Below the pieces are notes generated by a model. The model was not told where the DNA came from, did no database searches, and saw only the letters and a program-made list of their open reading frames with translations. 64,000 nucleotides of DNA, taken from the NCBI RefSeq assembly GCF_963675165.1, contig NC_087387.1, forward strand, positions 1,061,001 to 1,125,000, in the 5' to 3' direction. Positions 7,657 through 62,163 of this stretch are shown here, one piece after another (position 1 is the first letter of the stretch; each line of letters begins with the position of its first letter). Both the position numbers and the translations under genes were made by a program. This stretch comes from Halichondria panicea. Its lineage: Eukaryota > Porifera > Demospongiae > Suberitida > Halichondriidae.

Positions 7657-9828
7657 CTAAAAGATAACAACAGATCCGGCACTGCGCACATACACAAAAC
7701 CATCACTGTCCACAGCTACTCCATAAAGATCAGTGATATGACCATTACCAAATGATGTGACAAACTGACCGTCTTTAGTGAACACTGACACACGCTTGTT
7801 AGCATCGTCAGCAACATAAACAAAACCAGTGACACACACACCGCGAGGGCCATACAAATCTCCTTGTCCATTTCCTTTCTTTCCAATCGAGCGAATAAAC
7901 CGACCATCCATAGTGAGCATTTGAACACGATGATTATAACAGTCAATGACATACATCATTTGTTCATTGTCCACTGCAACATCCTCTGGTTCGTTAAAAT
8001 GTCCATTACCAGTTCCGTATGAACCAATCTGCTTGACTGGCTCCAACTCTGTCGTCAACACTTGGACTCTGCGATTGTTCTTATCGCACACAAACACTTG
8101 ATCACCAGCGACTGCTATCCCTCGAGGGTAGTAGAGTTCCTTTGGACCATTTCCTTCTGTCCCAAACCTCTTCAGCAGATCTCCTCTTTTGTTGAACTTG
8201 TACACACAGTGTTTGTTGTTGTCACAGAAATAGATGTTGTCCTCCTTGTCTACTGCCACACCAGAGATACCGACAAACCCATGCTTTGATTTGCTGATAC
8301 TTTGAATTTGTTCTCCTTTTTTGTCAAACACCAAAACATCACCAAGAAAGTCAGTTACAATCAGTTCTTCTGATGAGTTGAATGCCATATACACAGGGAT
8401 GTTGATTCCTTTTATCTGCTTCACTGGTTTGTCCAGCTTGGTGGGGGGTATTTTTACGAACACAGAGAAGGGGCTTCCTGGTATGGGCTGGTCGTCCACT
8501 GAGATCAGGAGGTGGTGTCGACCACGTACCCTAGGGGTGTACTCAACGCTGTACACTCCACCCATCAAAGGCACTGCTTGCAATTGTTGGGTCGATTGAT
8601 CAACTAGCGATTTCAGTACTGCTTGTGGTTTGCCTTGTTTTGAACTGATATAGACATTCAGACTTGCACATTTGTCAACTTCAGCTGTTTTGATACCGTC
8701 TCCTTTCACAATCGGCTTTCCTTCACACACAATAACATTGTTCTCACACAACTTCTTGAGATCCTCACAAACAAACACTTCAATTCCAAAATCATCTTTC
8801 TCCACTGGATCAGGATTGGCTGCTTCCTTCCCTCGCTTCACCACCTCGGCATCGATTCGACTCACCACCTGCTCTTGCATCGTAATCAGTTCTTCATCAC
8901 TTGCATTCTCCAGCGTACGCTCTACAAAGTCAATCAAACTCTGAGCAGTGCCCAGGGACAGGTCCAGACCCTTCTCTTGAACTGTCAGCTTCTCCATCTT
9001 TGAATCAGCCAAAGCAGAAGATTCTCGTAAAACACGGATCTTGCATTGATCGAGAATATCGTGTAGCTCCTGAAACTTGGTATTGACTTGTCTCTCTATC
9101 AGTTCTTTCTGGGCCTGGATATTCTGTTTGGTTCCTTTCACTTGATTCACAGCGGTGCTCAGATCAGGCAGTAGGTTCTTGAGTGGGGAGAGGTGCTCCG
9201 TCAGCTTTTTGCGAGTTGTGGGGGCGGCTTTCTTTACAAATTCGTAATTGTGTCCAGCGTGTTCAATAACGATACAGTCTCGACAGATGAGCTTGTTGCA
9301 ATCAAAACAGAAAATCTTTTTTGGCTCCTCATGATCCTCGCATTTTGGGGGTGGTGGGTTTTCGAATGTTAGTTCTTTGACTCCGCCCTGTTTGAGCTCT
9401 TCCAGAGTGGAGACGATATGTGTAGCAAACATTTTCATACGTTGATGAGATTCTACACATTTTTCACACATAAACTGGACACACTGTCGGCAGAATGCAG
9501 TGGCCTTTCCCCCAGGGCACATTTCACAGGTTGTCTCCAACTTGCCGTGGGCTTTCTCCATCCTCGAGTGGAGTGCTTTCATCCGGTTGATGAAGAACGC
9601 AGTGGTCAGTCTGTCTGGGTTGTTGTCTGGCAATAGAGTGGGCTCACGACAGTCGGGGCAGGGGAACGGCTGGTTGGGTGGGTAGCGACTGGAGAGTGTG
9701 AGGATGCATTGCTTGCAGTAGTAGTGACAACAAGGGAGCAGCTTTGGCTCCTGGTAGCGGTCATGACAGATGCCACAGGTCACCTCTTGCTCGAGATCAG
9801 CAACAACTGGATCAGGTCCTTCGGCCAT
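7657..9828 (-). CDS. TRIM-NHL protein T2 (723 aa)
   Basis: Complete single-exon TRIM-NHL protein, probable RING E3 ligase. RING 18-60, B-box 1 101-137, B-box 2 163-193, coiled coil about 205-330, filamin-type Ig domain about 365-460 (ends IPGSPFSVFVK), six NHL blades 470-723. The start is the conserved ATG before AEGPDP, with a leader intron acceptor 13 bases upstream. Strand b-c loops of blades 1-5 read FLGD, NNKH, KNNR, CYNH, DANK, and the loops before strand a read NIPV, VGIS, YYPR, NEPE, YGPR. The filamin half is the short type (KPIVKGDGIKTAEVDK), shared with T5 and in part T8. RING and B-box zinc ligands are all present, so it is probably functional. Relatives are TRIM2, TRIM3 and TRIM71, but orthology is not claimed. 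Confidence 0.93.
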   Translation of the reverse strand: MAEGPDPVVADLEQEVTCGICHDRYQEPKLLPCCHYYCKQCILTLSSRYPPNQPFPCPDCREPTLLPDNNPDRLTTAFFINRMKALHSRMEKAHGKLETTCEMCPGGKATAFCRQCVQFMCEKCVESHQRMKMFATHIVSTLEELKQGGVKELTFENPPPPKCEDHEEPKKIFCFDCNKLICRDCIVIEHAGHNYEFVKKAAPTTRKKLTEHLSPLKNLLPDLSTAVNQVKGTKQNIQAQKELIERQVNTKFQELHDILDQCKIRVLRESSALADSKMEKLTVQEKGLDLSLGTAQSLIDFVERTLENASDEELITMQEQVVSRIDAEVVKRGKEAANPDPVEKDDFGIEVFVCEDLKKLCENNVIVCEGKPIVKGDGIKTAEVDKCASLNVYISSKQGKPQAVLKSLVDQSTQQLQAVPLMGGVYSVEYTPRVRGRHHLLISVDDQPIPGSPFSVFVKIPPTKLDKPVKQIKGINIPVYMAFNSSEELIVTDFLGDVLVFDKKGEQIQSISKSKHGFVGISGVAVDKEDNIYFCDNNKHCVYKFNKRGDLLKRFGTEGNGPKELYYPRGIAVAGDQVFVCDKNNRRVQVLTTELEPVKQIGSYGTGNGHFNEPEDVAVDNEQMMYVIDCYNHRVQMLTMDGRFIRSIGKKGNGQGDLYGPRGVCVTGFVYVADDANKRVSVFTKDGQFVTSFGNGHITDLYGVAVDSDGFVYVRSAGSVVIF

Positions 9829-10463: not shown

Positions 10464-15705
<5,242 letters not shown>

Positions 15706-15734: not shown

Positions 15735-16225
15735 CTCAAAAAATACTTCGGCCAAATACTGCAGAGTTGTCTTGCGTTGCTATGACTTCATCACTTTGCT
15801 GCCATGTGGTGTCTTGTGATACAACGGTTTCTATCGTAATATTTTCAGGGATGTCTTGCATTTCTCTGGCTTCATCATCTGGGGGGGCCGGGGAGGGGCT
15901 GCTCTTGTACCTCAAATGTAGCTTGCTGTGTAATGAACGTGGCTTCTGCTGCTAATGCTTGAAACATCATCACCTGTTTGTTGAGCTCACAAACTAGGGA
16001 CTGGGCCGTGTAGAGGTCAAATTGTCCATCTTCAGAGCTTGGTTGGTCATCAGTGGGTACCGGTACTTCATCTTGTTCATTGAGATTGTCACTTTTAGTG
16101 AGGTTATTGAGATCTGATTGATAGTGGAGTCTCGCAAGCAGTGGCTCTGCTCTCTCTGTAGTTGTATAATGGGTCCATGCAACTGATGCAGCTTCAGATA
16201 CAGAGTGTGCTAGGTACTTGTCCAT
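15735..16225 (-). pseudogene. TUD-2, exon-1 fragment of extended-Tudor gene
   Basis: N-terminal exon of the Tudor-type gene: start at 16225 (MDKYLAHSVSEAASVAWTHY), then an acidic helical stretch. An extra C in a C-run near 15885, compared with TUD-3, shifts the frame after about 112 residues (the open frame ends at 15875). Homology stops near 15740, where the sequence joins MCM6 copy 2 just upstream of its exon 1. The start lies 175 bases downstream of the T3 stop on the same strand. The Tudor fold itself is absent from this fragment. Confidence 0.6.
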
Positions 16226-16400
16226 TTTCACTTGTAATAAGATGGTAAAGATCCTCATAACACAATCACAAACGATCTTTCCCAAAATAGGCAGCAGGCA
16301 GGTAAAGATCATCAGTAGAACTAACTGCTTCTCAATCAAAAGTAAATTATTACATACACATAAAACACAGATTGCTACTGCCCACACACACAAATAATAA

Positions 16401-18608
16401 CTAAAATATAACAACAGATCCATAACTGCACACATAAACAAAACCATCACTGTCCACAGCTACTCCAGCAACTCTATAAAGATTAGTGATATGAGCATTA
16501 CCAAATGATGTGACAAACTGACCGTCTTTAGTGAACACTGACACACGCTTGTTACCATCCTCAAAAACATAAACAAAACCAGTGACACACACACCACAAG
16601 GGGAAGACAGTTCTCCTTGTCCATTTCCTTTCTTTCCAATCGAGCGAATAAACCGACCATCCATAGTGAGCACTTGAACACGATGATTATAACAGTCAGT
16701 GACATACATCATTTGTTCATTGTCCACTGCAACATCCTCTGGTCCGTTAAAATGCTCATTACCAGTTCCGTATGAACCAATCTGCTTGACTGGCTCCAGC
16801 TCTGTCGTCAACACTTGGACTCTGTGATTACTCTGATCGCACACAAACACTTGATCACCAGCGACTGCTATCCCTCGAGGGGAGTTGAGTTCCTTTGGAC
16901 CACTTCCAATCGTCCCAAACCTCTTCAGCAGATCTCCTCTTTTGTTGAACTTGTACACACAGTGTTTGCTCCAGTCAGAGACATAGATGTTGTCCTCCTT
17001 GTCTACTGCCACGCCAGAGATACCGCCAAACCCGTGCTTTGATTTGCTGATGCTTCGAATTTGTTTTCCTTTCTTGTCAAACACCAAAACATCACCCTCA
17101 AAGTCAGTTACAATCAGTTCTTCTGACGAATTGAATGCCATATACTCAGGGATGTTGATTCCTCTCATCACCCTCACAGGTTTGTCCAGCTTGGTGGGGG
17201 GTATTTTGACGAACACAGAGAAGGGGCTTCCTGGGATGGGCTGGTCGTCTTCTGAGATCAGGAGGTGGTGTCGACCACGTACCCTAGGGGTGTACTCAAC
17301 ACTGTACACTCCACCCCTCACAGGCACTGCTTGTAGCTGTTGAGATGATTCTTCAACTAGCGATTTTAGAGCCACTTGTATTGTAGGATGCTTTAATTGT
17401 GTATTACATTCCACAAGAATCGAAAAATTGTTAGGTTTATCGATTTCAGCAGTTCTAGCTCCATCTCCTTCCACAGTGCACTTTGCTGGATCCACTTTAC
17501 CATCATACACTCTCACATTGTTCTCACACAACTTCTTGAGATCCTCACAAACAAACACTTCGACTCCAAAATCATCTTTCTCCACTGGATCAGGATTGGC
17601 TGCTTCCTTCCCTCGCTTCAACACCTCGGCATCGATTCGACTCACCACCTGCTCTTGCATCGTAATCAGTTCTTCATCACTTGCATTCTCCAGCGTACGG
17701 TCTACAAAGTCAATCAAACTCTGAGCAGTGCCCAGAGACAGGTCCAGACCCTTCTCTTGAACTGTCAGCTTCTCCATCTTTGAATCAGCCAAAGCAAAAG
17801 ATTCTCGTAAAACACGGACCTTGCATCGATTGAGAATATCGTGTAGCTCCTGGAACTTGGCATTCACTTGTCTCTTTGTCAGTTCTTTCTGGGCCTGGAT
17901 CTTCTGTTTAGTTCCTTTCACTTGATTCACAGCGGTGCTCAGATCAGGCAGTAGGTTCTTGAGTGGGGAGAGGTGCTCCGTCAGTTTTTTGCGAGTTGCG
18001 GGGGCGGCTTTCTTTACAAATTCGTAATTGTGTCCAGCGTGTTCAATAACGATACAGTCTCGACAGATGAGCTTGTTGCAATCGAAACAGAAAATCTTTT
18101 TTGGCTCTTCGTGATCTTCACATTTTGGGGGTGGTGGGTTTTCGAATGTTAGTTCTTTGACTCCACCCTGTTTGAGCTCGTCCAGAGTGGAGACGATATG
18201 TGTAGCAAACACTTTCATACGTTGATGAGGTTCCACACATTTTTCACAGATGAAATTGACACACTGTCGGCAGAATGCAGTGGCCTTTCCCCCAGAGCAC
18301 ATTTCACAAGTGGTCTCCAACTTGCCATGGGCTTTCTCCATCCTCGAGTGGAGTGCTTTCATCCGGTTGATAAAGAACGCAGTGGTCAGTCTGTCTGGGT
18401 TGTTGTCTGGCAATAGAGTGGGCTCACGACAGTCGGGGCAGGGGAACGGCTGGTTGGGTCGGTAGCGACTGGAGAGTGTGAGGATGCATTGCTTGCAGTA
18501 GTAGTGACAACAAGGGAGCAGCTTTGGCTCCTGGTAGCGGTCATGACAGATGCCACAGGTCACTTCTTGCTCGAGATCAGCAACAACTGGATCAGGTCCT
18601 TCGGCCAT
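16401..18608 (-). CDS. TRIM-NHL protein T3 (735 aa)
   Basis: Complete single-exon TRIM-NHL protein with intact RING, B-box 1 (FICEKCVEPH), B-box 2, coiled coil, filamin domain and six NHL blades. The filamin half is the long type (YDGKVDPAKCTVEGDGARTA), closely shared with T9. Loops b-c: FEGD, WSKH, QSNH, CYNH, DGNK. Loops before strand a: NIPE, GGIS, NSPR, NGPE, SSPC. The last blade carries a three-residue insertion (LYRVAGVAV against LYGVAV) from a 9-base gain, with the frame kept. The leader intron is at 18622-18821. Probably functional. Confidence 0.93.
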   Translation of the reverse strand: MAEGPDPVVADLEQEVTCGICHDRYQEPKLLPCCHYYCKQCILTLSSRYRPNQPFPCPDCREPTLLPDNNPDRLTTAFFINRMKALHSRMEKAHGKLETTCEMCSGGKATAFCRQCVNFICEKCVEPHQRMKVFATHIVSTLDELKQGGVKELTFENPPPPKCEDHEEPKKIFCFDCNKLICRDCIVIEHAGHNYEFVKKAAPATRKKLTEHLSPLKNLLPDLSTAVNQVKGTKQKIQAQKELTKRQVNAKFQELHDILNRCKVRVLRESFALADSKMEKLTVQEKGLDLSLGTAQSLIDFVDRTLENASDEELITMQEQVVSRIDAEVLKRGKEAANPDPVEKDDFGVEVFVCEDLKKLCENNVRVYDGKVDPAKCTVEGDGARTAEIDKPNNFSILVECNTQLKHPTIQVALKSLVEESSQQLQAVPVRGGVYSVEYTPRVRGRHHLLISEDDQPIPGSPFSVFVKIPPTKLDKPVRVMRGINIPEYMAFNSSEELIVTDFEGDVLVFDKKGKQIRSISKSKHGFGGISGVAVDKEDNIYVSDWSKHCVYKFNKRGDLLKRFGTIGSGPKELNSPRGIAVAGDQVFVCDQSNHRVQVLTTELEPVKQIGSYGTGNEHFNGPEDVAVDNEQMMYVTDCYNHRVQVLTMDGRFIRSIGKKGNGQGELSSPCGVCVTGFVYVFEDGNKRVSVFTKDGQFVTSFGNAHITNLYRVAGVAVDSDGFVYVCSYGSVVIF

Positions 18609-19292: not shown

Positions 19293-24447
<5,155 letters not shown>

Positions 24448-27485: not shown

Positions 27486-29684
27486 CTAAAATATAACAAC
27501 AGATCCTAGACTGCGCACATAAACAAAACCATCACTGTCCACAGCTACTCCATAAGGAAAAATGATATGACCATTACCAAATGATGTGACAAACTGACCG
27601 TCTTTAGTGAACACTGACACACGATTGTTATCATAATCAGCAACATAAACAAAACCAGTGACACACACACCATGAGGGTTAGACAGATCTCCTTGTCCAT
27701 TTCCTTTCTTTCCAATCGAGCGAATAAACCGACCATCCATAGTGAGCACTTGAACACGATGATTATAACAGTCAGTGACATACATCATTTGTTCATTGTC
27801 CACTGCGACATCCTCTGGTCCGTTAAAATGCTCATTACCAGTTCCGTATGAACCAATCTGCTTGACTGGCTCCAGCTCTGTCGTCAACACTTGGACTCTG
27901 TGGTTGTTCTGATCGCACACAAACACTTGATCACCAGCGACTGCTATCCCTCGAGGCCAGTTGAGTTCCTTTGGACCAATTCCCCTTGTCCCAAACCTCT
28001 TCAGTAGATCTTCTCTTTTGTTGAACTTGTACACACAACTTTCGCCGTTGTCACAGACATATATGTTGTCCTCCTTGTCTACTGCCACACCAGAGATATT
28101 GCTAAACCCATGCTTTGATTTGCTGATGCTTCGAATTCGTTCTCCTTTCTTGTCCAACACCAAAACATCACTGTCTCGATCAGTTACAATCAGTTCTTCT
28201 GATGAGTTGAATGCCATATACCGAGGGTTGTTGATTCCTTTTATCACTCTTACTGGTTTGTCCAGCTTCGTAGGGGGTATTTTGACGAACACAGAGAAGG
28301 GGCTTCCTGGGATGGGCTGGTTGTCCACTGAGATCAGGAGGTGGTGTCGACCACGTACCCTAGGGGTGTACTCAACACTGTACACTCCACCCCTCACAGG
28401 CACTGCTTGCAATTGCTGAGATGATTCATCAACTAGCGATTTTAGAGCCACTTGTATTGTATGATGCTTAAATTGTGTATTACATTCCACAAGAATCGAA
28501 AAATTGTTAAGTGTACTAATTTCAGCAGTTCTAGCTCCATTTCCTTCGACAGTGAACTTGGTTGGATCCACTTTTCCTTCATACACAAAAACGTTGTTCT
28601 CACACAACTTCTTGAGATCCTCAGAAACAAACCCTTCGACTTCAAAATCATCTTTCTCTACTGGATCAAGATTGGCTGCTTCCTTCCCTCGCTTCACCAC
28701 CTCGGCATCGATTCGACTCACCACCTGCGATTGCATTGTAATCAGTTCTTCATCACTTGCATTCTCCAGTGTACACTCTACAAAGGCAATCAAACTCTGA
28801 GCAGTGCCCAGGGACAGGTCCAGACCCTTCTCTTGAACCGTCAGCTTCTCCATCTTTGAATCAGCTAAAACAGAAGATTTTCGTAAAACACGGACCTTGC
28901 ATTGATCGAGAATATCGTGTAGCTCCTGGAACTTGGCATTCACTTGTCTCTCTGTCAGCTCTTTCTGGGCCTGTATCTTCTGTTTAGTTCCTTTCACTTG
29001 ATTCACAGCGGTGCTCAGATGAGGCAGTAGGTTCTTGAGTGGGGAGAGGTGCTCTGTCAGCTTTTTGCGAGTTGCGGGGGCGGCTTTCTTTACAAATTCG
29101 TAATTGTGTCCAGCATGTTCAATAACGATACAGTCTCGACAGATGAGCTTGTTGCAATCAAAACAGAAAATCTTTTTCAGTTCCTCGTGATCTTCACATT
29201 TTGGGGGTGGTGGGTTTTCGAATGTTAGTTCTTTGACTCCACCCTGTTTGAGCTCGTCCAGAGTGGAGACGATATGTGTAGTAAACATTTTCATACGCTG
29301 ATGAGGTTCCACACATTTTTCACACATAAACTGGACACACTGTCGGCAGAATGCAGTGGCCTTTCCCCCAGGGCACATTTCACAGGTGGCCTCCAACTTG
29401 CCGTGGGCTTTCTCCATCCTCGAGTGGAGTGCTTTCATCCGGTTGATGAAGAACGCAGTGGGCAGTCTGTCTGGGTTGTTGTCTGGCAATAGAGTGGGCT
29501 CACGACAGTCGGGGCAGGGGAACGGCTGGTTGGGTCGGTAGCGACTGGAGAGTGTGAGGATGCATTGCTTGCAGTAGTAGTGACAACAAGGGAGCAGCTT
29601 TGGCTCCTGGTAGCGGTCATGACAGATGCCACAGGTCACTTCTTGCTCGAGATCAGCAACAACTGGATCAGGTCCTTCGGCCAT
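27486..29684 (-). CDS. TRIM-NHL protein T4 (732 aa)
   Basis: Complete single-exon TRIM-NHL protein with intact RING, two B-boxes, coiled coil, filamin domain and six NHL blades. The filamin half is a long-type variant (YEGKVDPTKFTVEGNGARTA, EISTLNN) almost identical to T6. Loops b-c: RDSD, NGES, QNNH, CYNH, YDNN. Loops before strand a: NNPR, SNIS, NWPR, NGPE, SNPH. Blades 1-3 match T6 exactly at these loops while blade 4 matches T3, a mosaic pattern suggesting gene conversion. Leader intron at 29698-29894. Probably functional. Confidence 0.93.
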   Translation of the reverse strand: MAEGPDPVVADLEQEVTCGICHDRYQEPKLLPCCHYYCKQCILTLSSRYRPNQPFPCPDCREPTLLPDNNPDRLPTAFFINRMKALHSRMEKAHGKLEATCEMCPGGKATAFCRQCVQFMCEKCVEPHQRMKMFTTHIVSTLDELKQGGVKELTFENPPPPKCEDHEELKKIFCFDCNKLICRDCIVIEHAGHNYEFVKKAAPATRKKLTEHLSPLKNLLPHLSTAVNQVKGTKQKIQAQKELTERQVNAKFQELHDILDQCKVRVLRKSSVLADSKMEKLTVQEKGLDLSLGTAQSLIAFVECTLENASDEELITMQSQVVSRIDAEVVKRGKEAANLDPVEKDDFEVEGFVSEDLKKLCENNVFVYEGKVDPTKFTVEGNGARTAEISTLNNFSILVECNTQFKHHTIQVALKSLVDESSQQLQAVPVRGGVYSVEYTPRVRGRHHLLISVDNQPIPGSPFSVFVKIPPTKLDKPVRVIKGINNPRYMAFNSSEELIVTDRDSDVLVLDKKGERIRSISKSKHGFSNISGVAVDKEDNIYVCDNGESCVYKFNKREDLLKRFGTRGIGPKELNWPRGIAVAGDQVFVCDQNNHRVQVLTTELEPVKQIGSYGTGNEHFNGPEDVAVDNEQMMYVTDCYNHRVQVLTMDGRFIRSIGKKGNGQGDLSNPHGVCVTGFVYVADYDNNRVSVFTKDGQFVTSFGNGHIIFPYGVAVDSDGFVYVRSLGSVVIF

Positions 29685-36567: not shown

Positions 36568-38751
36568 CTAAAAGATAACAACAGATCCTTCACTGCGCAC
36601 ATACACAAAACCATCACTGTCCACAGCTACTCCATAAAGATTAGTGATATGACCATTACCAAATGATGTGACAAACTGGCCGTCTTTAGTGAACACTGAC
36701 ACACGCTTGTTACCATCCTCAACAACATAAACAAAACCATTGACACACACACCATAAGGGTAAGACAGATCTCCTTGTCCACTTCTTTTCTTTCCAATCG
36801 AGCGAATAAACCGACCATCCATAGTGAGCACTTGAACACGAAGATTATGACAGTCAGTGACATACACCATTCGTTCATTATCCACTGCAACATCCTCTGG
36901 GCAGTTAAAATGCTCATTACCAGTTCCCTTTGAACCAATCTGCTTGACTGGCTCCAGCTCTGTAGTCAACACTTGGACTCTGTGATTCTCTCGATCGCAC
37001 ACAAACAATTGATCACCAGCGACTGCTATCCCTCGAGGCCAGTTGAGTTCCTTTGGACCACTTCCCTTCGTCCCAAACCTCTTCAGTAGGTCTCCTCTTT
37101 TGTTGAACTTGTACACACAGTGTTTGCCGCTATCACAGACATAGATGTTGTCCTCCTTGTCTACTGCCACACCAGAGATACCGACAAACCCATGCTTTGA
37201 TTTGCTGATGCTTCGAATTTGTTTTCCTTTCTTGTCAAACACCAAAACATCACCAAGAAAGTCAGTTACAATCAGTTCTTCTGATGAGTTGAATGCCATA
37301 TACACAGGGATGTTGATTCCTTTTATCTCCTTCACTGGCTTGTCTAGCTTGGTGGGGGGTATTTTGATGAACACAGAGAAGGGGCTTCCTGGGATGGGCT
37401 GGTCGTCCACTGAGATCAGGAGGTGGTGTCGACCACGTACCCTAGGGGTGTACTCAACACTGTACACTCCACCCCTCACAGGCACTGCTTGCAATTCTTG
37501 AGATGTGTCATCAGATAGCGTTTTCAGTAGAAGTTGTGGCTTGCCTCTTTTTGAACCGCAATAAAATATCAGTTTTGAACATTTGTCAACTTCAGCTGTT
37601 TTGATACCGTCTCCTTTCACAATCGGCTTTCCGTCATACACAATAACATTGTTCTCACACAACTTCTTGAGATTCTCACAAACAAACACTTCAATTCCAA
37701 AATCATCTTTCTCCACTGGATCAGGATTGGCTGCTTCCTTCCCTTGCTTCACCACCTTGGCATCGATTCGACTCACCACCTGCTCTTGCATCGTAATCAG
37801 TTCTTCATCACTTGCATTCTCCAGTGTACGCTCTACAAAGTCAATCAAACTCTGAGCAGTGCCCAGGGACAGGTCCAGACCCTTCTCTTGAACCGTCAGC
37901 TTCTCCATCTTTGAATCAGCCAAAGCAGAAGATTCTCGTAAAACACGGACCTTGCATCGATCGAGAATATCGTGTAGCTCCTGGAACTTGGCATTCACTT
38001 GTCTCTCTGTCAGTTCTTTCTGGGCCTGAATCTTCTGTTTAGTTCCTTTCACTTGATTCACAGCGGTGCTCAGATCAGGCAGTAGGTTCTTGAGTGGGGA
38101 GAGGTGCTTCGTCAGCTTTTTGCGAGTTGCGGGGGCGGCTTTCTTTACAAATTCGTAATTGTGTCCAGCGTGTTCAATAACGATACAGTCTCGACAGATG
38201 AGCTTGTTGCAATCGAAACAGAAAATCTTTTTTAGTTCTTCGTGATCATCACATTTTGGGGGTGGTAGGTTTTCGAATGTTAGTTCTTTCACTCCGCCCT
38301 GTTTGAGCTCGTCCAGAGTGGAGACGATATGTGTAGCAAACACGGCTTTCATACGTTGATGAGATTCTACACATTTTTCACAGATAAAATTGACACACTG
38401 TCGGCAGAATGCAGTGGCCTTTCCCCCAGAGCACACTTCACAGGTGGTCTCCAACTTGCCGTGAGCTTTCTCCATCCTTGAGTGGAGTGCTTTCATCCGG
38501 TTGATGAAGAATGCAGTGGGCAGTCTGTCTGGGTTGTTGTCAGGCAACAGAGTGGGCTCACGACAGTCGGGGCAAGGGAACGGCTGGTTGGGTTGGTAGC
38601 GACTGGAGAGTGTGAGGATGCATTGCTTGCAGTAGTAGTGACAACAAGGGAGCAGCTTTGGCTCCTGGTAGCGGTCATGACAGATGCCACAGGTCACCTC
38701 TTGCTCGAGATCAGCAACAACTGGATCAACTGGATTAGGTCCTTCGGCCAT
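36568..38751 (-). CDS. TRIM-NHL protein T5 (727 aa)
   Basis: Complete single-exon TRIM-NHL protein. The N-terminus carries a four-residue gain (PNPVDPVV, an imperfect DPV duplication) and B-box 1 an extra Ala (RMKAVFATH). RING and B-box ligands are intact. The filamin half is the short type (KPIVKGDGIKTAEVDK) as in T2, but with its own strand (KLIFYCGSKRGKPQLLLK). Loops b-c: FLGD, SGKH, RENH, CHNL, DGNK. Loops before strand a: NIPV, VGIS, NWPR, NCPE, SYPY. T5 and T2 both sit upstream of the same kind of MCM6/TUD unit, pointing to a larger duplication that included both. Probably functional. Confidence 0.93.
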   Translation of the reverse strand: MAEGPNPVDPVVADLEQEVTCGICHDRYQEPKLLPCCHYYCKQCILTLSSRYQPNQPFPCPDCREPTLLPDNNPDRLPTAFFINRMKALHSRMEKAHGKLETTCEVCSGGKATAFCRQCVNFICEKCVESHQRMKAVFATHIVSTLDELKQGGVKELTFENLPPPKCDDHEELKKIFCFDCNKLICRDCIVIEHAGHNYEFVKKAAPATRKKLTKHLSPLKNLLPDLSTAVNQVKGTKQKIQAQKELTERQVNAKFQELHDILDRCKVRVLRESSALADSKMEKLTVQEKGLDLSLGTAQSLIDFVERTLENASDEELITMQEQVVSRIDAKVVKQGKEAANPDPVEKDDFGIEVFVCENLKKLCENNVIVYDGKPIVKGDGIKTAEVDKCSKLIFYCGSKRGKPQLLLKTLSDDTSQELQAVPVRGGVYSVEYTPRVRGRHHLLISVDDQPIPGSPFSVFIKIPPTKLDKPVKEIKGINIPVYMAFNSSEELIVTDFLGDVLVFDKKGKQIRSISKSKHGFVGISGVAVDKEDNIYVCDSGKHCVYKFNKRGDLLKRFGTKGSGPKELNWPRGIAVAGDQLFVCDRENHRVQVLTTELEPVKQIGSKGTGNEHFNCPEDVAVDNERMVYVTDCHNLRVQVLTMDGRFIRSIGKKRSGQGDLSYPYGVCVNGFVYVVEDGNKRVSVFTKDGQFVTSFGNGHITNLYGVAVDSDGFVYVRSEGSVVIF

Positions 38752-41290: not shown

Positions 41291-43489
41291 CTAAAAGATA
41301 ACAACAGATCCGGCACTGCACACATACACAAAACCATCATTGTCCACAGCTACTCCATAAAGATGGGAAGTGATATGACCATTACCAAATGATGTGACAA
41401 ACTGACCGTCTTTAGTAAACACTGACACACGATTGTTATCAAAATCAGCAACATAAACAAAGCTAGTAACACACACACCATGAGGGCGAGACAGATCTCC
41501 TTGTCCACTTCCCTTCTTTCCAATCGAGCGAATAAACCGACCACCCATAGTGAGCACTTGAACACGATGATTACTATAGTCAGTGACATACACCATTTGT
41601 TCATTGTCCACTGCAATATCCTCTGGTCCGTTAAAATGTCCATTACCAGTTCCCTTTGAACCAATCTGCTTGACCAGCCGCTCTGTCGTTAATACTTGGA
41701 CTCTGTGGTTGTTCTGATCGCACACAAACACTTGATCACCAGCGACTGCTATCCCTCGAGGCCAGTTGAGTTCCTTTGGACCAATTCCCCTTGTCCCAAA
41801 CCTCTTCAGTAGATCTTCTCTTTTGTTGAACTTGTACACACAACTTTCGCCGTTGTCACAGACATATATGTTGTCCTCCTTGTCTACTGCCACACCAGAG
41901 ATATTGCTAAACCCATGCTTTGATTTGCTGATGCTTCGAATTCGTTCTCCTTTCTTGTCCAACACCAAAACATCACTGTCTCGATCAGTTACAATCAGTT
42001 CTTCTGATGAGTTGAATGCCATATACCGAGGGTTGTTGATTCCTCTTATCACTCTTACTGGTTTGTCCAGCTTCGTAGGGGGTATTTTGACAAACACAGA
42101 GAAGGGGCTTCCTGGGATGGGCTGATTGTCCACTGAGATCAGGAGGTGGTGTCGACCACGTATCCTAGGGGTGTACTCAACACTGTACACTCCATCCCTC
42201 ACAGGCACTGCTTGCAATTGCTGAGATGATTCTTCAACTAGCGATTTTAGAGCCACTTGTATTGTATGATGCTTAAATTGTGTATTACATTCCACAAGAA
42301 TCGAAAAATTGTTAAGTGTACTAATTTCAGCAGTTCTAGCTCCATTTCCTTCGACAGTGAACTTTGTTGGATCCACTTTTCCTTCATACACAAAAACGTT
42401 GTTCTCACACAACTTCTTGAGATCCTCAGAAACAAACCCTTCGACTTCAAAATCATCTTTCTCTACTGGATCAAGATTGGCTGCTTCCTTCCCTCGCTTC
42501 ACCACCTCGGCATCGATTCGACTCACCACCTGCGATTGCATTGTAATCAGTTCTTCATCACTTGCATTCTCCAGTGTACGCTCTACAAAGGCAATCAAAC
42601 TCTGAGCAGTGCCCAGGGACAGGTCCAGACCCTTCTCTTGAACCGTCAGCTTCTCCATCTTTGAATCAGCTAAAACAGAAGATTTTCGTAAAACACGGAC
42701 CTTGCATTGATCGAGAATATCGTGTAGCTCCTGGAACTTGGCATTCACTTGTCTCTCTGTCAGCTCTTTCTGGGCCTGGATCTTCTGTTTAGTTCCTTTC
42801 ACTTGATTCACAGCGGTGCTCAGATCAGGCAGTAGGTTCTTGAGTGGGGAGAGGTGCTCTGTCAGCTTTTTGCGAGTTGCGGGGGCGGCTTTCTTTACAA
42901 ATTCGTAATTGTGTCCAGCGTGTTCAATAACGATACAGTCTCGACAGATGAGCTTGTTGCAATCGAAACAGAAAATCTTTTTTAGTTCCTCGTGATCTTC
43001 ACATTTTGGGGGTGGTGGGTTTTCGAATGTTAGTTCTTTCACTCCGCCCTGTTTGAGCTGTTCCAGAGTAGAGACGATATGTGTAGCAAACACTTTCATA
43101 CGTTGATGAGGTCTTACACAATCCTCACAGATGAAATTGACACACTGTCGGCAGAATGCAGTGGCTTTTCCCCCAGAGCACATTTCACAAGTAGTCTCCA
43201 ACTTGCCGTGGGCTTTCTCCATCCTCGAGTGGAGTGCTTTCATCCGGTTGATGAAGAACGCAGTGGTCAGTCTGTCTGGGTTGTTGTCTGGCAATAGAGT
43301 GGGCTCACGACAGTCGGGGCAGGGGAACGGCTGGTTGGGTCGGTAGCGACTGGAGAGTGTGAGGATGCATTGTTTGCAGTAGTAGTGACAACAAGGGAGC
43401 AGCTTTGGCTTCTGGTAGCGGTCATGACAGATACCACAGGTCACCTCTTGCTCGAGATCAGCAACAACTGGATCAGGTCCTTCGGCCAT
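41291..43489 (-). CDS. TRIM-NHL protein T6 (732 aa)
   Basis: Complete single-exon TRIM-NHL protein. I choose the ATG at 43489 by homology; an extra in-frame ATG directly before it (43492) is unique to this copy. RING, B-boxes (B-box 1 FICEDCVRPH as in T9), coiled coil, filamin and NHL are intact. Filamin is the T4 type. Loops b-c: RDSD, NGES, QNNH, YSNH, FDNN. Loops before strand a: NNPR, SNIS, NWPR, NGPE, SRPH. Two residues are missing where others read TTELEPVK (TTERLVK). The last blade has one extra residue (TSHLYGVAV). Leader intron 43506-43681. Probably functional. Confidence 0.93.
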   Translation of the reverse strand: MAEGPDPVVADLEQEVTCGICHDRYQKPKLLPCCHYYCKQCILTLSSRYRPNQPFPCPDCREPTLLPDNNPDRLTTAFFINRMKALHSRMEKAHGKLETTCEMCSGGKATAFCRQCVNFICEDCVRPHQRMKVFATHIVSTLEQLKQGGVKELTFENPPPPKCEDHEELKKIFCFDCNKLICRDCIVIEHAGHNYEFVKKAAPATRKKLTEHLSPLKNLLPDLSTAVNQVKGTKQKIQAQKELTERQVNAKFQELHDILDQCKVRVLRKSSVLADSKMEKLTVQEKGLDLSLGTAQSLIAFVERTLENASDEELITMQSQVVSRIDAEVVKRGKEAANLDPVEKDDFEVEGFVSEDLKKLCENNVFVYEGKVDPTKFTVEGNGARTAEISTLNNFSILVECNTQFKHHTIQVALKSLVEESSQQLQAVPVRDGVYSVEYTPRIRGRHHLLISVDNQPIPGSPFSVFVKIPPTKLDKPVRVIRGINNPRYMAFNSSEELIVTDRDSDVLVLDKKGERIRSISKSKHGFSNISGVAVDKEDNIYVCDNGESCVYKFNKREDLLKRFGTRGIGPKELNWPRGIAVAGDQVFVCDQNNHRVQVLTTERLVKQIGSKGTGNGHFNGPEDIAVDNEQMVYVTDYSNHRVQVLTMGGRFIRSIGKKGSGQGDLSRPHGVCVTSFVYVADFDNNRVSVFTKDGQFVTSFGNGHITSHLYGVAVDNDGFVYVCSAGSVVIF

Positions 43490-43960
43490 CATTTATAGTT
43501 CAGATCTGGGGAATGCATTTGTAAAAGCATGAAACTAATCTCATGTTTAATTAATGCAAATATTGGCTAGCTAGAAATTGAGTACTAGTCTAGAATGTTA
43601 AATCTGTGAATAATAGTTTGCACTAAGTGATCAATTAGGTCAAGCTAAGCTAGACCTCTGCAGCTAGTTGAAAAAACTTACCTACTAGATCTATATCAGA
43701 AGTTCCTTTCAAGCACATTAATTTGTATGAATCTCAGATACGCCCACTTTTTTGTTTCAACGCCCACACTTTTCTTCCCATCATCCATTCACTTCTTCCA
43801 GAGTCTCAAAAGAAGTGAGTCCACATTGAGCATGTATGGAAACAAATTGGATAAAAACCTATATTTATTTGCATACTGCATATTGCTTAGTACAGTCTAT
43901 CTGGCTATAAACAATCAGGCTCCAGCTATAGAATTGAGTGTGTGTGTTCCTTCCCTACAG

Positions 43961-45418: not shown

Positions 45419-47515
45419 CTACTCCATAAGAGAAGTGATATGACCATTACCAAATGATGTGACAAACTGACCATCTTTAGTGAACACTGACACACGCTTG
45501 TTAGTATACTCAGCAACATAAAGAAAACTACTGACACACACACCATAAGGGTCAGACAGATCTCCTTGTCCATTTCCTTTCTTTCGAATAAACCGACCAT
45601 CCATAGTGAGCACTTGAACACGATGATTACCATAGTCAGTGACATACACCATTTGTTCATTGTCCACCGCAACGTCCTCTGGTAGGTCATTACCAGTTTC
45701 CATTGAATCAATCTGCTTGACTGGCCCCAGCTCTGTCGTCAACACTTGGACTCCGTAATTCCCTCGATTGCACACAAACACTTCATCACCAGCGACTGCT
45801 ATCCCTTGAGGGTAGTAGAGTTTTTTTAGAACACTTTCCCTCGTCCCAAACCATTTTAGCAGATATCCTCTTTTGTACACGCAGTGTTTGTACCTGTCAC
45901 AGACATAGATGTTGTCTTCCTTGTCTACTGCCACACGAGAGATACTGCCAAACCAATGTATTGATTTGCTGATGCTTTGAATTTGTTTTCCTTTCTTGTC
46001 AAACATCAAAATATCACCGTTCCAGTCAGTTACAATCAGTTCTTCTGATGAGTTGAATGCCATATACCGAGGGTTGTTGATTCCTCTTATCACCCTCACA
46101 GGTTTGTCCAGCTTGGTGGGGGGTATTTTGACGAACACAGAGAATGGGCTTCCTGAAATAGGCTGGTCGTCCACTGAGATCAGGAGGTGGTGTCGACCAC
46201 GTACCCTAGGGGTGTACTCAACACTGTACACTCCACCCCTCATAGGCACTGCTTGTAGCTGTTGAGATGATTGATCAGCTAGCAATTTTAAAGTTGCTTT
46301 AGCTTTTGAAAATTGTCGTGGATGGTGTATATTGATTGAAAAGCAAGCAGGTTTATCGATTTCAGCATTTTTAACTACATCTCCTTCCACAGTGCACTTC
46401 GTTGGATCCACTGTACCGTCATACACAATAACGTTGTTCTTACACAACTCCTTGAGACCCTTATAAACAAACACCTCAACTCCAAAATCATCTTTCTCCA
46501 CTGGATCAGAATTGGCTGCTTCCTTCACTACCTCGGCATCGATTCGACTCACCACCTGCTCTTGCATCGTAATCAGTTCTTCATCACTTGCATTCTCCAG
46601 TGTACGCTCTACAAAGTCAATTAAACTCTGAGCAGTGCCCAGGGACAGGTCCAGACCTTTCTCTTGAACCGTCAGCTTCTCCATCTTTGAATTAGCCAAA
46701 GCAGAAGATTCTCGTAAAACACGGACTTTGTATTGATCGAGAATATCGTGTAGCTCCTGAAACTTGGCATTCACTTGTCTCTCTGTCAGTTCTTTCTGGG
46801 CCTGGATCTTCTGTTTAGTTCCTTTCACTTGATTCACAGCGGTGCTCAGATCAGGCAGTAGGTTCTTGAGTGGGGAGAGGTGCTCCGTCAGCTTTTTGCG
46901 AGTTTCGGGGGCAGCTTTCTTAACTAACTCTGACTTGTGGTCACAATGATCGAACACAACACAGTCTCGACAGATGAGCTTATTGCAATCGAAACAAAAA
47001 ATCTTCTTTGGCTCCTCATGATCCTCGCATTTTGGGGGTAGTGGGCTTTCGAATGTTAGATCTTTCACTCCGCCCTGTTTGAGCTCGTCCAGAGTGGAGA
47101 CGATATGTGTAGCAAACACTTTCATATGCTGATGAGATCTTACACAATCCTCACAAATGAACTGGACACACTGTCGGTAGAATGCAGTGGCCTTTCCCCC
47201 AGAGCACATTTCACAGGTGGTCTCCAACTTGCCGTGGGCTTTCTCCATTCTCGAGTGGAGTGCTTTCATCCGGTTGATGACGAATGAAGTGGGCAGTCTG
47301 TCTAGGTTGTTGCCTGGCAATAGAGTGGGCTCACGACAGTCGGGGCAGGGGAACGGCTGGTTGGGTCGGTAGCGACTGGAGAGTGTGAAGATGCATTGCT
47401 TGCAGTAGTAGTGACAACAAGGGAGCAGCTTTGGCTCCTGGTAGCGGTCATGGCAGATGCCACAGGTCACCTCTTGCTCGAGATCAGCAACAATTGGATC
47501 AGGTCCTTCGGCCAT
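45419..47515 (-). pseudogene. TRIM-NHL protein T7, decaying copy (698 aa open frame)
   Basis: The most diverged TRIM-NHL copy. The start is placed at 47515 by homology, although the frame is open 34 codons further up. RING ligands are intact, but B-box 1 has a zinc-ligand Cys changed to Tyr (AFYRQC). B-box 2 is distinct (CVVFDHCDHKSELV). Small in-frame deletions occur (KEAANS for KRGKEAANP, a shortened blade 2-3 region). Loops b-c: WNGD, RYKH, RGNY, YGNH, YTNK. In the final blade one base is lost (HITSLME then stop at 45419), and four bases are gained shortly after, so the last blade is missing. A six-bladed propeller would not close normally. It could still make a truncated protein. Confidence 0.8.
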
Positions 47516-47940
47516 CGTTAGAAATTGTTTCTCAGATCTGAAGAATGCAATTGTGTAGAATGTTGAATATGGCATAAACTTTGTATAATTAGCTATATAC
47601 ATGCTATATACATTCACTATACCTCTGCAGCTACTGTATAAAGTCTTACCTACAATCAGAAAATGGGTTAAGGCATATGGTAAAAGTAAGCAATGAACTG
47701 AAGTAGCAGTAGGCTGCTCTAAGTTGTAAAATTAATGTTATTCATAGCGTTTCACCCAGCTATAGTGTTTTAATGAGATTCATTGCATTTTCTAGTACAA
47801 ATTAATGTTTGCGATTTTACTCAGAAATTAATACTCGCGAAAATATGTAACTGAGATACACCCACATTTCTTCACAGTCATACCATATCTATGGTCATAC
47901 AATATTTGCAGTTAGGCTATAATAATAGCTAGTCCAGTCA

Positions 47941-51134: not shown

Positions 51135-53294
51135 CTAAAATATAACAACAGATTCATGACTGCGCACATACACAAAACCATCACTGTCCACAGCTACTCC
51201 ATAAAGATCAGTGATATGACCATTACCAAATGATGTGACAAACTGACCGTCTTTAGTGAACACTGACACACGCCTGTTACCATCGTCAATAACATAAACA
51301 AAACCAGTGACACATACACCAAAAGGGCGAGACAGATCTCCTTGTCCATTTCCTTTCTTTCCAATCGAGCGAATAAACCGACCATCCATAGTGAGCACTT
51401 GAACACGATTATTATAATAGTCAATGACATACACCATTTGTTCATTGTCCACTGCAACATCCTGTGGGAGGTTAAAATGTCCATTACCAGATCCCTTTGA
51501 ACCAATCTGCTTGACTGGCTCCAGCTCTGTCGTCAACACTTGGACTCTGTGATTAGCTCGATCGCACACAAACACTTGATCACCAGCGACTGCTATCCCT
51601 CGAGGCCAGTTGAGTTCCTTTGGACCACTTCCCTTCGTCCCAAACCTCTTCAGCAGATCTCCTCTTTTGTTGAACTTGTACACACAGTGTTTGCCGCTAT
51701 CACAGACATAGATGTTGTCCTTCTTGTCTACTGCCACACCAGAGATACCGCCAAACTCATGCTTTGATTTGCTGATGCTTCGAATTCGTTCTCCTTTCTT
51801 GTCAAACACAAAAACATCACCGCTATAGTCAGTTACAATCAGTTCTTCTGATGAGTTGAATACCATATATTGAGGGTTGTTGATTCCTCTTATCACCCTC
51901 ACTGGTTTGTCCAGCTTGGTAGGGGGTATTTTGACGAACACAGAGAAGGGGCTTCCTGGGATAGGCTGATCGTCCACTGAGATCAGGAGGTGGTGTTGAC
52001 CACGTACCCTAGGGGTGTACTCAACGCTGTACACTCCACCCCTCACAGGCACTGCTTGCAATTGTTGGGTCGATTGATCAACTAGCGATTTCAGTACTGC
52101 TTGTGGTTTGCCTTGTTTTGAACTGATATAGACATTCAGATTTGCACATTTGTCAACTTCAGCCATCTTCACACCATCACCCCTCACAGAAGGATAAAAT
52201 ACAACATTGTTCTCACACAACTTCTTGAGATCCTCACAAACAAACACTTCGACTCCAAAATCATCTTTCTCCACTGGATCAGGATTGGCTGCTTCCTTCC
52301 CTCGCTTCACCACCTCGGCATCGATTCGACTCACCACCTGCTCTTGCATCGTAATCAGTTCTTCATCACTTGCATTCTCCAGTGTACGCTCTACAAAGTC
52401 AATCAAACTCTGAGCAGTGCCCAGGGACAGGTCCAGACCCTTCTCTTGAGCCGCCAGCTTCTCCATCTTTGAATCAGCCAAAGCAGAAGATTCTCGTAAA
52501 ACACGGACCTTGCATCGATCGAGAATATCGTGTAGCTCCTGGAACTTGGCATTCACTTGTCTCTCTGTCAGTTCTTTCTGGGCCTGAATCTTCTGTTTAA
52601 TTCCTTTCACTTGATTCACAGCTGTGCTCAGATCAGGCAGTAGGTTCTTGAGTGGGGAGAGGTGCTCCGTCAGCTTTTTGCGAGTTGCGGGGACGGCTTT
52701 TTTTACAAATTCGTAATTGTGTCCAGCGTGTTCAATAACGATACAGTCTCGACAGATGAGCTTGTTGCAATCGAAGCAGAAAATCTTTTTTAGTTCCTCG
52801 TGATCCTCGCATTTTGGGGGTGATGGGCTTTCGAATGTTAGTTCTTTCACTCCGCCCTGTTTGAGCTCATCCAGAGTGGAGATGGCATGTCCGGCAAATA
52901 CTTTCATTTTATGAGACTTCACACAATCGTCACAGATAAAACTGACACACTGTCGGCAGAATGCAGTGGCCTTTCCCCCAGAGCACATTTCACAGGTGGT
53001 CTCCAACTTTCCGTGGGCTTTCTCCATCCTCGAGTGGAGTGCTTTCATCCGGTTGATGAAGAACGCAGTGGGTAGTCTGTCAGGGTTGTTGTCTGGCAAT
53101 AGAGTGGGCTCACGACAGTCGGGGCAGGGGAACGACTGGTTGGGTTGGAAGCGACTGGAGAGTGTGAGGATACATTGCTTGCAGTAGTAGTGACAACAAG
53201 GGAGCAGCTTTGGCTCCTGGTAGCGGTCATGACAGATGCCACAGGTCACTTCTTGCTCGAGATCAGCAACAACTGGATCAGGTCCTTCGGCCAT
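51135..53294 (-). CDS. TRIM-NHL protein T8 (719 aa)
   Basis: Complete single-exon TRIM-NHL protein. B-box 1 is the most distinct in the array (FICDDCVKSHKMKVFAGHA, slightly shorter), with ligands kept. RING, B-box 2 and coiled coil match the rest. The filamin half starts with a unique short segment (VVFYPSVRGDGVKMAEVDK) and then equals T2 (NLNVYISSKQGKPQ), a visible mosaic. Loops b-c: YSGD, SGKH, RANH, YYNN, DGNR. Loops before strand a: NNPQ, GGIS, NWPR, NLPQ, SRPF. Leader intron 53308-53509. Probably functional. Confidence 0.93.
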   Translation of the reverse strand: MAEGPDPVVADLEQEVTCGICHDRYQEPKLLPCCHYYCKQCILTLSSRFQPNQSFPCPDCREPTLLPDNNPDRLPTAFFINRMKALHSRMEKAHGKLETTCEMCSGGKATAFCRQCVSFICDDCVKSHKMKVFAGHAISTLDELKQGGVKELTFESPSPPKCEDHEELKKIFCFDCNKLICRDCIVIEHAGHNYEFVKKAVPATRKKLTEHLSPLKNLLPDLSTAVNQVKGIKQKIQAQKELTERQVNAKFQELHDILDRCKVRVLRESSALADSKMEKLAAQEKGLDLSLGTAQSLIDFVERTLENASDEELITMQEQVVSRIDAEVVKRGKEAANPDPVEKDDFGVEVFVCEDLKKLCENNVVFYPSVRGDGVKMAEVDKCANLNVYISSKQGKPQAVLKSLVDQSTQQLQAVPVRGGVYSVEYTPRVRGQHHLLISVDDQPIPGSPFSVFVKIPPTKLDKPVRVIRGINNPQYMVFNSSEELIVTDYSGDVFVFDKKGERIRSISKSKHEFGGISGVAVDKKDNIYVCDSGKHCVYKFNKRGDLLKRFGTKGSGPKELNWPRGIAVAGDQVFVCDRANHRVQVLTTELEPVKQIGSKGSGNGHFNLPQDVAVDNEQMVYVIDYYNNRVQVLTMDGRFIRSIGKKGNGQGDLSRPFGVCVTGFVYVIDDGNRRVSVFTKDGQFVTSFGNGHITDLYGVAVDSDGFVYVRSHESVVIF

Positions 53295-53986: not shown

Positions 53987-57655
<3,669 letters not shown>

Positions 57656-59964: not shown

Positions 59965-62163
59965 CTAAAATATAACAACAGATTCTTGACTGCGCACATA
60001 AACAAAACCATCACTGTCCACAGCTACTCCATAAAGATCAGTGATATGACCATTACCAAATGATGTGACAAACTGATCGTCTTTAGTGAACACTAACACA
60101 CGATTGTTACTATCCTCAGCAACATAAACAAAACCAGTGACACACACACCATACGGGTCAGACAGATCTCCTTGTCCACTTCCTTTCTTTCCAATCGAGT
60201 GAATAAACCGACCATCTATAGTGAGCACTTGAACACGATGATTACCATAGTCAGTGACATACATCATTTGTTCATTGTCCACTGCAACATCCTCTGGGTG
60301 GTTAAAATGTCTATTACCAGTTCCCTTTGAACCAATCTGCTTGACTGGCTCCAGCTCTGTCGTCAACACTTGGACTCTGTGATTGTCTTGATCGCACACA
60401 AACACTTGATCACCAGCGACTGCTATCCCTCGAGGCCAGTTGAGTTCCTTTGGACCACTTCCCTTCGTCCCAAACCTCTTCAGTAGATCTCCTCTTTTGT
60501 TGAACTTGTACACACAGTGTTTGCTGCAGTCACAGACATAGATGTTGTCCTCCTTGTCTACTGCCATACCATAGATATTGTCAACCCCATGCTTTGATTT
60601 GCTGAAGATTTGAATTTGTTTTCCTTTCTTGTCAAACACCAAAACATCACCACTACCGTCAGTTACAATCAGTTCTTCTAACGAATTAAATGCCATATAC
60701 CGAGGGTTATTGATTCCTGTTATCACCTTCACTGGTTTGTCCAGCTTGGTGGGGGGTATTTTAATGAACATAGAGAAGGGGCTTCCTGGGATGGGCTGAT
60801 CATCCACTGAGATCAGGAGGTGGTGTCGACCACGTATCCTAGGGGTGTACTCAACGCTGTACACTCCACCCCTCACAGGCACTGCTTGTAGCTGTTGAGA
60901 GGATTGATCAACTAGCGATTTTAGAGCCACTTGTATTGTATGATGCTTTAATTGTGTATTACATTCCACAAGAATCGAAAAATTGTTAGGTTTATCGATT
61001 TCAGCAGTTCTAGCTCCATCTCCTTCCACAGTGCACTTTGCTGGATCCACTTTACCATCATACACTCTCACATTGTTCTCACACAACTTCTTGAGATCCT
61101 CACAAACAAACACTTTGACTCCAAAATCATCTTTCTCCACTGGATCAGGATTGGCTGCTTCCTTCCCTCGCTTCAACACCTCGGCATCGATTCGACTCAC
61201 CACCTGATCTTGCATCGTAATCAGTTCTTCATCACTTGCATTCTCCAGTGTACGTTCTACAAAGTCAATCAAACTCTGAGCAGTGCCCAGGGACAGGTCC
61301 AGACCCTTCTTTTGAACTGTCAGCTTCTCCATCTTTGAATCAGCCAAAGCAGAAGATTCTCGTAAAACACGGACCTTGCATCGATCGAGAATATCGTGTA
61401 GCTCCTGGAACTTGGCATTCACTTGTCTCTCTGTCAGTTCTTTCTGGGCCTGGATATTCTGTTTAGTTCCTTTCACTTGATTCACAGCGGTGCTCAGATC
61501 AGGCAGTAGGTTCTTGAGTGGGGAGAGGTGCTCCGTCAGCTTTTTGCGAGTTGCGGGGGCGGCTTTCTTTACAAATTCGTAATTGTGTCCAGCGTGTTCA
61601 ATAACGATACAGTCTCGACAGATGAGCTTGTTGCAATCGAAACAGAAAATCTTTTTTGGCTCTTCGTGATCTTTGCATTTTGGGGGTGGTGGGTTTTCGA
61701 ATGTTAGTTCTTTGACTCCGCCTTGTTTGAGCTCGTCCAGAGTGGAGACGATATGTGTAGCAAACACTTTCATACGTTGATGAGGTCTTACACAATCCTC
61801 ACAGATGAAATTGACACACTGTCGGCAGAATGCAGTGGCCTTTCCCCCAGAGCACATTTCACAAGTGGTCTCCAACTTGCCATGGGCTTTCTCCATCCTC
61901 GAGTGGAGTGCTTTCATCCGGTTGATAAAGAACGCAGTGGTCAGTCTGTCTGGGTTGTTGTCTGGCAATAGAGTGGGCTCACGACAGTCGGGGCAGGGGA
62001 ACGGCTGGTTGGGTCGGTAGCGACTGGAGAGTGTGAGGATGCATTGCTTGCAGTAGTAGTGACAACAAGGGAGCAGCTTTGGCTCCTGGTAGCGGTCATG
62101 ACAGATGCCACAGGTCACTTCTTGCTCGAGATCAGCAACAACTGGATCAGGTCCTTCGGCCAT
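59965..62163 (-). CDS. TRIM-NHL protein T9 (732 aa), last array member
   Basis: Complete single-exon TRIM-NHL protein with intact RING, B-box 1 (FICEDCVRPH), B-box 2 (CKDHEEPKK), coiled coil, filamin and six NHL blades. The filamin half is the long type shared with T3. Loops b-c: GSGD, CSKH, QDNH, YGNH, DSNN. Loops before strand a: NNPR, DNIY, NWPR, NHPE, SDPY. It is the first TRIM gene of the array in the direction of transcription. Its leader intron (62177-62360) and upstream sequence match other copies up to about 62,478 and then stop matching. Probably functional. Confidence 0.93.
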   Translation of the reverse strand: MAEGPDPVVADLEQEVTCGICHDRYQEPKLLPCCHYYCKQCILTLSSRYRPNQPFPCPDCREPTLLPDNNPDRLTTAFFINRMKALHSRMEKAHGKLETTCEMCSGGKATAFCRQCVNFICEDCVRPHQRMKVFATHIVSTLDELKQGGVKELTFENPPPPKCKDHEEPKKIFCFDCNKLICRDCIVIEHAGHNYEFVKKAAPATRKKLTEHLSPLKNLLPDLSTAVNQVKGTKQNIQAQKELTERQVNAKFQELHDILDRCKVRVLRESSALADSKMEKLTVQKKGLDLSLGTAQSLIDFVERTLENASDEELITMQDQVVSRIDAEVLKRGKEAANPDPVEKDDFGVKVFVCEDLKKLCENNVRVYDGKVDPAKCTVEGDGARTAEIDKPNNFSILVECNTQLKHHTIQVALKSLVDQSSQQLQAVPVRGGVYSVEYTPRIRGRHHLLISVDDQPIPGSPFSMFIKIPPTKLDKPVKVITGINNPRYMAFNSLEELIVTDGSGDVLVFDKKGKQIQIFSKSKHGVDNIYGMAVDKEDNIYVCDCSKHCVYKFNKRGDLLKRFGTKGSGPKELNWPRGIAVAGDQVFVCDQDNHRVQVLTTELEPVKQIGSKGTGNRHFNHPEDVAVDNEQMMYVTDYGNHRVQVLTIDGRFIHSIGKKGSGQGDLSDPYGVCVTGFVYVAEDSNNRVLVFTKDDQFVTSFGNGHITDLYGVAVDSDGFVYVRSQESVVIF

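Follow-up and report, generated by a model that had tools for sequence, protein, structure and literature searches.

Diversifying selection on the ligand-like propeller face of a TRIM-NHL gene array, a likely recognition repertoire, in the sponge Halichondria panicea

The stretch of 64,000 nucleotides analysed here (the window, C11:1061001-1125000) is a slice of an array of TRIM-NHL genes on one contig, C11. It raises the question why neighbouring genes that are alike over much of their length differ at a few residues in each blade of their NHL propeller. It had been predicted from the letters of the window that selection has diversified ligand recognition in these proteins. Indeed, the eight minus-strand TRIM-NHL reading frames of the original prediction (T2 to T9, 719-735 aa) were all found, next to part of a further copy:

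2..652, minus strand: 5' part of a ninth TRIM-NHL copy, cut by the window edge (the whole gene is C11:1059481-1061652)
7657..9828, minus strand: T2, intact TRIM-NHL gene, 723 aa (NHL 7660-8451)
16401..18608, minus strand: T3, intact TRIM-NHL gene, 735 aa (NHL 16404-17204)
27486..29684, minus strand: T4, intact TRIM-NHL gene, 732 aa (NHL 27489-28280)
36568..38751, minus strand: T5, intact TRIM-NHL gene, 727 aa (NHL 36571-37362)
41291..43492, minus strand: T6, intact TRIM-NHL gene, 733 aa (NHL 41294-42085), near-identical to four other copies on the contig (five in all)
45419..47602, minus strand: T7, decayed TRIM-NHL copy with an early end in a shifted frame and several in-frame gaps
51135..53294, minus strand: T8, intact TRIM-NHL gene, 719 aa (NHL 51138-51929)
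59965..62163, minus strand: T9, intact TRIM-NHL gene, 732 aa, the reference for numbering
59968..60759, minus strand: NHL propeller of T9, aa 469-732 (AlphaFold2 model, mean pLDDT 90.9)

T7 lacks the end of its last blade. Four copies of its type (T7 and those at C11:949296, 1038658 and 1197289) carry a TAG within the frame at about the same site and adjoin T6-like genes, as if inherited in the decayed form.

The array extends far past the window. In the assembly (131 Mb, 39 contigs) a protein search returned at least 64 rows of TRIM-NHL matches on C11, at least 47 of them full-length and stop-free, counts that are lower bounds because only the best candidates were scored in this search. Most of these matches lie at 940-1,296 kb. 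Reading frames were collected from 43 C11 copies and 38 were aligned; the five dropped were three T7-type copies, one 5'-truncated copy and a seemingly intact one at 1000130, overlooked by the start filter. A contiguous 250 kb of C11 contains no N and no direct repeats of more than 2,500 bases at >=98% identity. This speaks against a simple haplotype-duplication artefact of the assembly, a danger raised with the original prediction, and the artefact was rated low.

In both C11 proteins scanned, RING (zf-C3HC4), B-box (zf-B_box), Filamin and NHL domains scored above the Pfam cut-off, while no match to B30.2/SPRY was found in these two proteins at E 0.01. The coiled-coil region (residues 200-345) was assigned by position. 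The filamin domain is followed by six NHL repeats, predicted to form a six-bladed propeller (Pfam; model pLDDT 90.9). Judged by its predicted domains, the C11 family belongs to the filamin-NHL class of TRIM proteins.

Variability was mapped relative to two landmarks in each blade, namely P, the proline (or equivalent) before strand a in the d-a loop, and D, the aspartate (or equivalent) that ends strand b in the b-c loop. In the 38 aligned C11 copies the five most variable in-blade positions are P-2, P-1, P+1, D+1 and D+2, exactly the b-c and d-a loops that had been singled out beforehand. Mean entropy over the six blades is 2.25 bits for D+2, 2.24 for P-1, 2.23 for D+1, 1.52 for P+1 and 1.01 for P-2. 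The sixth-ranked position, D+4, has 0.93 bits and most remaining positions have less than 0.4. The residues reported for the eight window copies after VTD in blade 1 (FLG, FEG, RDS, FLG, RDS, WNG, YSG, GSG) and after VCD/VCN in blade 3 (KNN, QSN, QNN, REN, QNN, RGN, RAN, QDN) proved exact. In T9 the face consists of the following residues:

485, 486, 488; 528, 529, 531; 575, 576, 578; 621, 622, 624; 668, 669, 671; 708, 709, 711: P-2, P-1 and P+1
503, 504; 546, 547; 592, 593; 639, 640; 684, 685; 726, 727: D+1 and D+2

Distinct faces are found in 33 of the 38 copies, with a mean of 18.5 of the 30 positions differing. The claim that the face differs in almost every copy holds to this extent, but T4 and T6 share blades 1-3, and the T6-like and T9-like sets are near-identical. 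Likewise, the constant scaffold was confirmed for the RING region (mean entropy 0.06 bits in the 38 frames), B-box 2 (0.11) and the coiled-coil region (0.12), but not for the filamin region 346-470 (0.53) and B-box 1 (0.37), which vary too. The filamin region (T9 numbering) comes in a small number of strongly divergent sequence types (pS 0.19-0.25, pN/pS about 0.5), which are intermingled across the copies as though whole blocks had been swapped.

In the structure of zebrafish LIN41/TRIM71, 14 residues are named as RNA contacts in the passages cited (PMC5908797). Mapped on the letters of human TRIM71, all 14 fall in the classes P-2, P-1, P+1, D+1 and D+2, so that the variable classes of the array are the RNA-contact classes of LIN41. 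A letter-by-letter check of human TRIM71 confirmed 12 of 13 contact positions; the thirteenth, R608, lies beyond the letters used in that check and was confirmed separately. The AlphaFold2 model of the T9 NHL domain, built from eight window sequences, superimposes on RNA-bound LIN41 (6fq3) with a TM score of 0.90 and on 4zlr with 0.75; its best matches among solved structures are Thin, LIN41, TRIM71 and TRIM2. The top face was assigned by homology and secondary structure. The 30 face positions lie in non-regular structure (22), at strand ends (four) and in short helices (four) of the model.

Substitution counts set the top loops apart from the remainder of the protein. Over all pairs of the 38 copies, pN/pS is 2.62 for the d-a loops and 1.19 for the b-c loops, against 0.42 for the bottom turns, 0.49 for the rest of NHL, 0.54 for residues 346-470 and 0.26 for residues 1-345. 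For 17 independent nearest pairs, chosen with pairs of fewer than eight NHL differences left out, the corresponding values are 2.88, 1.58, 0.43, 0.66, 0.51 and 0.27. The seven window copies give 2.06, 1.08, 0.50, 0.47, 0.56 and 0.31, the b-c value being just 1.08 because local pS is high there too. Variable sites are thus not scattered over both faces (top loops 1.2-2.9, bottom turns 0.42); the top and bottom classes were taken from the repeat motifs once the entropy map was known, although the same loops had been named in advance.

Codon models were fitted on a coarse grid with fixed kappa and nucleotide branch lengths, using a contact set of 30 positions defined by structural class. On a single NHL tree with shared alpha the estimates were alpha 0.5, beta 3.0 at contact positions and 0.25 at the rest (2dL 592 vs beta=alpha). 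With one tree per blade they were 0.5, 4.0 and 0.35 (2dL 378), and contact beta exceeded alpha in each of the six blades. When the contact codons were given their own alpha, this was 0.75 vs a beta of 3.0 on the single tree (2dL 114) and 1.0 vs 4.0 on the blade trees (2dL 52). The ratio at the contact-equivalent positions therefore lies above 1 in all three settings, with an omega of 4-8 that varies with the tree and with the codons setting the synonymous rate. Individual sites with P>0.9 comprise 25 of the 30 contact positions and 14 of the 232 others on the single tree, and 17 of 30 and 13 of 232 on the blade trees, where 13 of the 30 contact positions stay below 0.9; positions outside the contact set thus make up 14 of 39 and 13 of 30 of such sites, respectively. 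In the N-terminal part 6 of 470 sites passed.

Surface loops often tolerate change, and most face positions of the model lie outside regular structure, so drift at residues that no longer matter might produce a variable face as well. This relaxation of constraint is very improbable, as face nonsynonymous change exceeds synonymous change within the same genes and the bottom loops are equally exposed yet constrained. A further yardstick is offered by an MCM6 gene that lies between the TRIM copies:

12719..13036, minus strand: MCM6 exon frame between TRIM copies
3866-4207, 21554-21871, 32699-33016 and 56350-56682, minus strand: the same MCM6 exon at other sites in the window

This AAA exon, for which MCM6 is the best solved match, was found in 19 of the 31 inter-TRIM intervals of the 250 kb stretch and is carried by 25 C11 rows; the MCM6 gene has introns and is co-amplified with the TRIM genes. 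MCM matches also occur on six other contigs. The exon copies (pS 0.098, pN 0.0038) are constrained, unlike the adjoining TRIM faces. Face nonsynonymous change is also higher than the diversity of the linked MCM6 DNA, noncoding and coding taken together, for which mean pi is 0.036 (19 units with 3,737 columns, the exons of MCM6 among them). As a neutral yardstick this linked noncoding value is imperfect, being lower than the synonymous diversity of MCM6 (0.098) and TRIM (about 0.1), and the latter was relied on. Diversifying selection on the ligand-like face is near certain, and the predicted diversification of ligand recognition by selection is supported by both the rate ratios and the placement of the face; its further step to immunity or self-recognition is one that we infer.

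The copies do not share a single history. N-terminal and NHL trees have 2 of 35 splits in common and each part rejects the tree of the other, each half of NHL likewise rejects that of the other half (AU p 8.6e-06 and 1.8e-08), and between-copy similarity is weakly correlated across blades (0.12-0.35). The copies therefore exchange segments. Single-tree site tests are unreliable under so much recombination and need care, whereas pair counts and blade trees are free of the assumption of one gene tree.

Recent copies were compared with a set of 33 variable codons, chosen partly for their variability. Among the five T6-like copies of the contig there are 3-9 synonymous codon differences and 0-1 differences in this set of 33; among three T9-like copies there are 8-21 and none, respectively. 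The pair 1077401-1168577 has 12 synonymous codon differences in 732, yet 7 of the 33 variable codons differ. Faces that stay nearly unchanged in recent copies indicate that the diversity is not made anew at each duplication. They also argue against local mutation or targeted hypermutation of face codons in place of selection, an explanation that would suit the way changes gather within individual codons, frequently affecting two or three of the bases, and that nevertheless has very little probability. Such a process would have to hit the same structural positions in three clusters and, within each gene, in six different sequence contexts. Furthermore, diversity in the 33 codons is higher at codon positions 1 (0.38) and 2 (0.45) than at position 3 (0.27), a comparison coloured by the fact that these codons were partly picked for variability.

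Two further clusters, about 40% identical, show the same pattern of variability. A search with a cluster 2 protein returned 143 rows, of which 33 (75-100% identity) lie at C3:5.89-6.31 Mb and 34 (about 40% identity) in three C3 stretches at 0.07-1.92 Mb. In cluster 2 (14 sequences, the register of blade 4 set by hand) variability is again highest in the five classes found in C11, with pN/pS 1.11 vs 0.42. In cluster 3 (15 sequences) D+1, P-1, P+1 and D+2 lead and D+4 stands slightly above P-2, with pN/pS 2.04 vs 0.72; all 15 faces are distinct, a mean of 20 of the 30 positions differing. A cluster 3 protein fragment, whose RING end lies outside the fragment, has two B-boxes.

What these faces might bind is suggested by their composition. 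Frequent residues of the C11 faces are N, S, Y, G and R (D also), and W, which is absent from the rest of NHL, is present. The NHL domain of Brat is that of a conserved developmental RNA regulator with a basic face. LIN41/TRIM71, as described in the passages cited (PMC5908797), shares filamin-NHL architecture and fold with the array, and its RNA-contact positions are the array's variable positions; it differs as a conserved developmental RNA regulator with a basic face, the array being multi-copy and hypervariable with C11 faces near neutral. Each NHL domain could read a different RNA element, for instance of viral or transposon origin, as LIN41, Brat and TRIM56 do, the faces tracking changing RNA targets. 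The shared contact positions speak for such an RNA-targeting repertoire, as do the cited statements that the NHL-like domain of TRIM56 binds viral RNA and restricts flaviviruses (PMC11768893). However, the LIN41 contacts are described as mainly electrostatic and directed to the backbone (PMC5908797), and the net charge of the C11 faces averages -0.3 (range -5 to +4), with none of the 38 at the +5 of the TRIM71 face counted identically. The basic top-face patch of RNA-binding NHL domains is thus not seen in C11, although the contact positions are equivalent. In cluster 3, by contrast, the faces carry a mild positive charge (mean +2.7, three of the 15 reaching at least +5), which speaks for RNA. 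On charge the RNA option is weakened for the C11 array but not for cluster 3, and overall we consider it unlikely. TRIM2/3 faces, less polar and of mixed charge, are called unlikely to bind RNA as Brat does in the text cited (PMC9634614). For the C11 array protein ligands would, on the same grounds, be at least as likely as RNA.

The explanation that we favour, with reasonable confidence, is a germline repertoire of cytosolic E3 ligases diversified by selection for ligand recognition; that the array is a recognition repertoire is likely. RING-B-box-filamin-NHL ubiquitin ligases of the cytosol would combine one common effector half with many ligand-binding faces. Tandem duplication would supply new copies, gene conversion and recombination would hold the scaffold uniform while shuffling segments of the face, and diversifying selection would favour changes at about 30 residues on the propeller top that are equivalent to the ligand contacts of LIN41/TRIM71. 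Each copy would probably bind a different foreign or fast-changing cytosolic molecule, and this molecule or its complex would then receive a ubiquitin mark. The diversity, its location, the signal of selection, the recombination and the recurrence in two other clusters are direct results of the analysis. Ligand binding, ligase activity and immune function of the copies are what we infer, and an immune function of the array appears plausible. High diversity on a constant scaffold would fit self-recognition (allorecognition or gamete compatibility) as well as defence. Such a role in place of pathogen defence is rather improbable; the protein starts, by eye, directly with RING, which points to the cytosol.

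Like diversified TRIM repertoires elsewhere, these genes lie in multi-copy clusters and their putative ligand loops are under positive selection. The teleost finTRIMs (ftr), in the passages cited (PMC2657112), are also clustered TRIM genes with near-identical RING/B-box, recombination and a C-terminal ligand domain diversified by positive selection in its loops. That domain is B30.2/PRY-SPRY in finTRIMs and filamin-NHL in the array, so the array is not of the finTRIM family; moreover, finTRIMs were discovered as virus-induced transcripts, the array in genome sequence. Primate TRIM5alpha, as described in the same source (PMC2657112), likewise has hypervariable ligand-binding loops in a cytosolic TRIM, driven by conflict, but is a single gene with B30.2 and a known retroviral capsid ligand. 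TRIM56 is a RING E3 with an NHL-like propeller and a reported direct antiviral role; it is one gene, and the cited text mentions no hypervariable array (PMC11768893). The cited parts of two accounts of the TRIM family mention tandem expansions but not hypervariable NHL (PMC3503706; PMC3137616). No earlier report of hypervariable NHL arrays was found in the open-access PMC literature, which does not prove priority. The best reading by analogy is that the array would work like finTRIMs, with NHL in place of B30.2.

If so, NHL would be a second TRIM ligand fold, besides B30.2, to have become a hypervariable recognition repertoire. One structural map would predict the residues that set specificity, making identification of ligands directly testable. 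It would also broaden our picture of how large sets of intracellular detectors are built by animals that lack adaptive immunity, and it suggests an evolvable propeller scaffold for the design of binder-ligases. The chances are about even for the broadest form of this proposal, in which the NHL propeller serves as recognition scaffold in more than 100 germline E3 genes that diversified separately in three clusters, each bearing some 30 hypervariable contact positions that resemble antibody loops in composition and are reshuffled by recombination, as a large intracellular detector set of an early-branching animal that couples recognition directly to ubiquitination.

Other frames were observed beside the TRIM genes. 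A repeated frame lies downstream of TRIM copies (15875-16459, minus strand, and similar ones after others); this type gave no Pfam match at E 0.001. Open frames at 24983-26398 (plus strand) resemble, by eye, pieces of a retroelement or Ginger-type integrase, and the one at 63349-63999 (plus strand) resembles a KDZ-type transposase, likewise by eye. On another contig, C1:5280527-5280718 is a short nuclear copy of mitochondrial COX1 with an in-frame TGA read as Trp, a reading that shows only a mitochondrial code.
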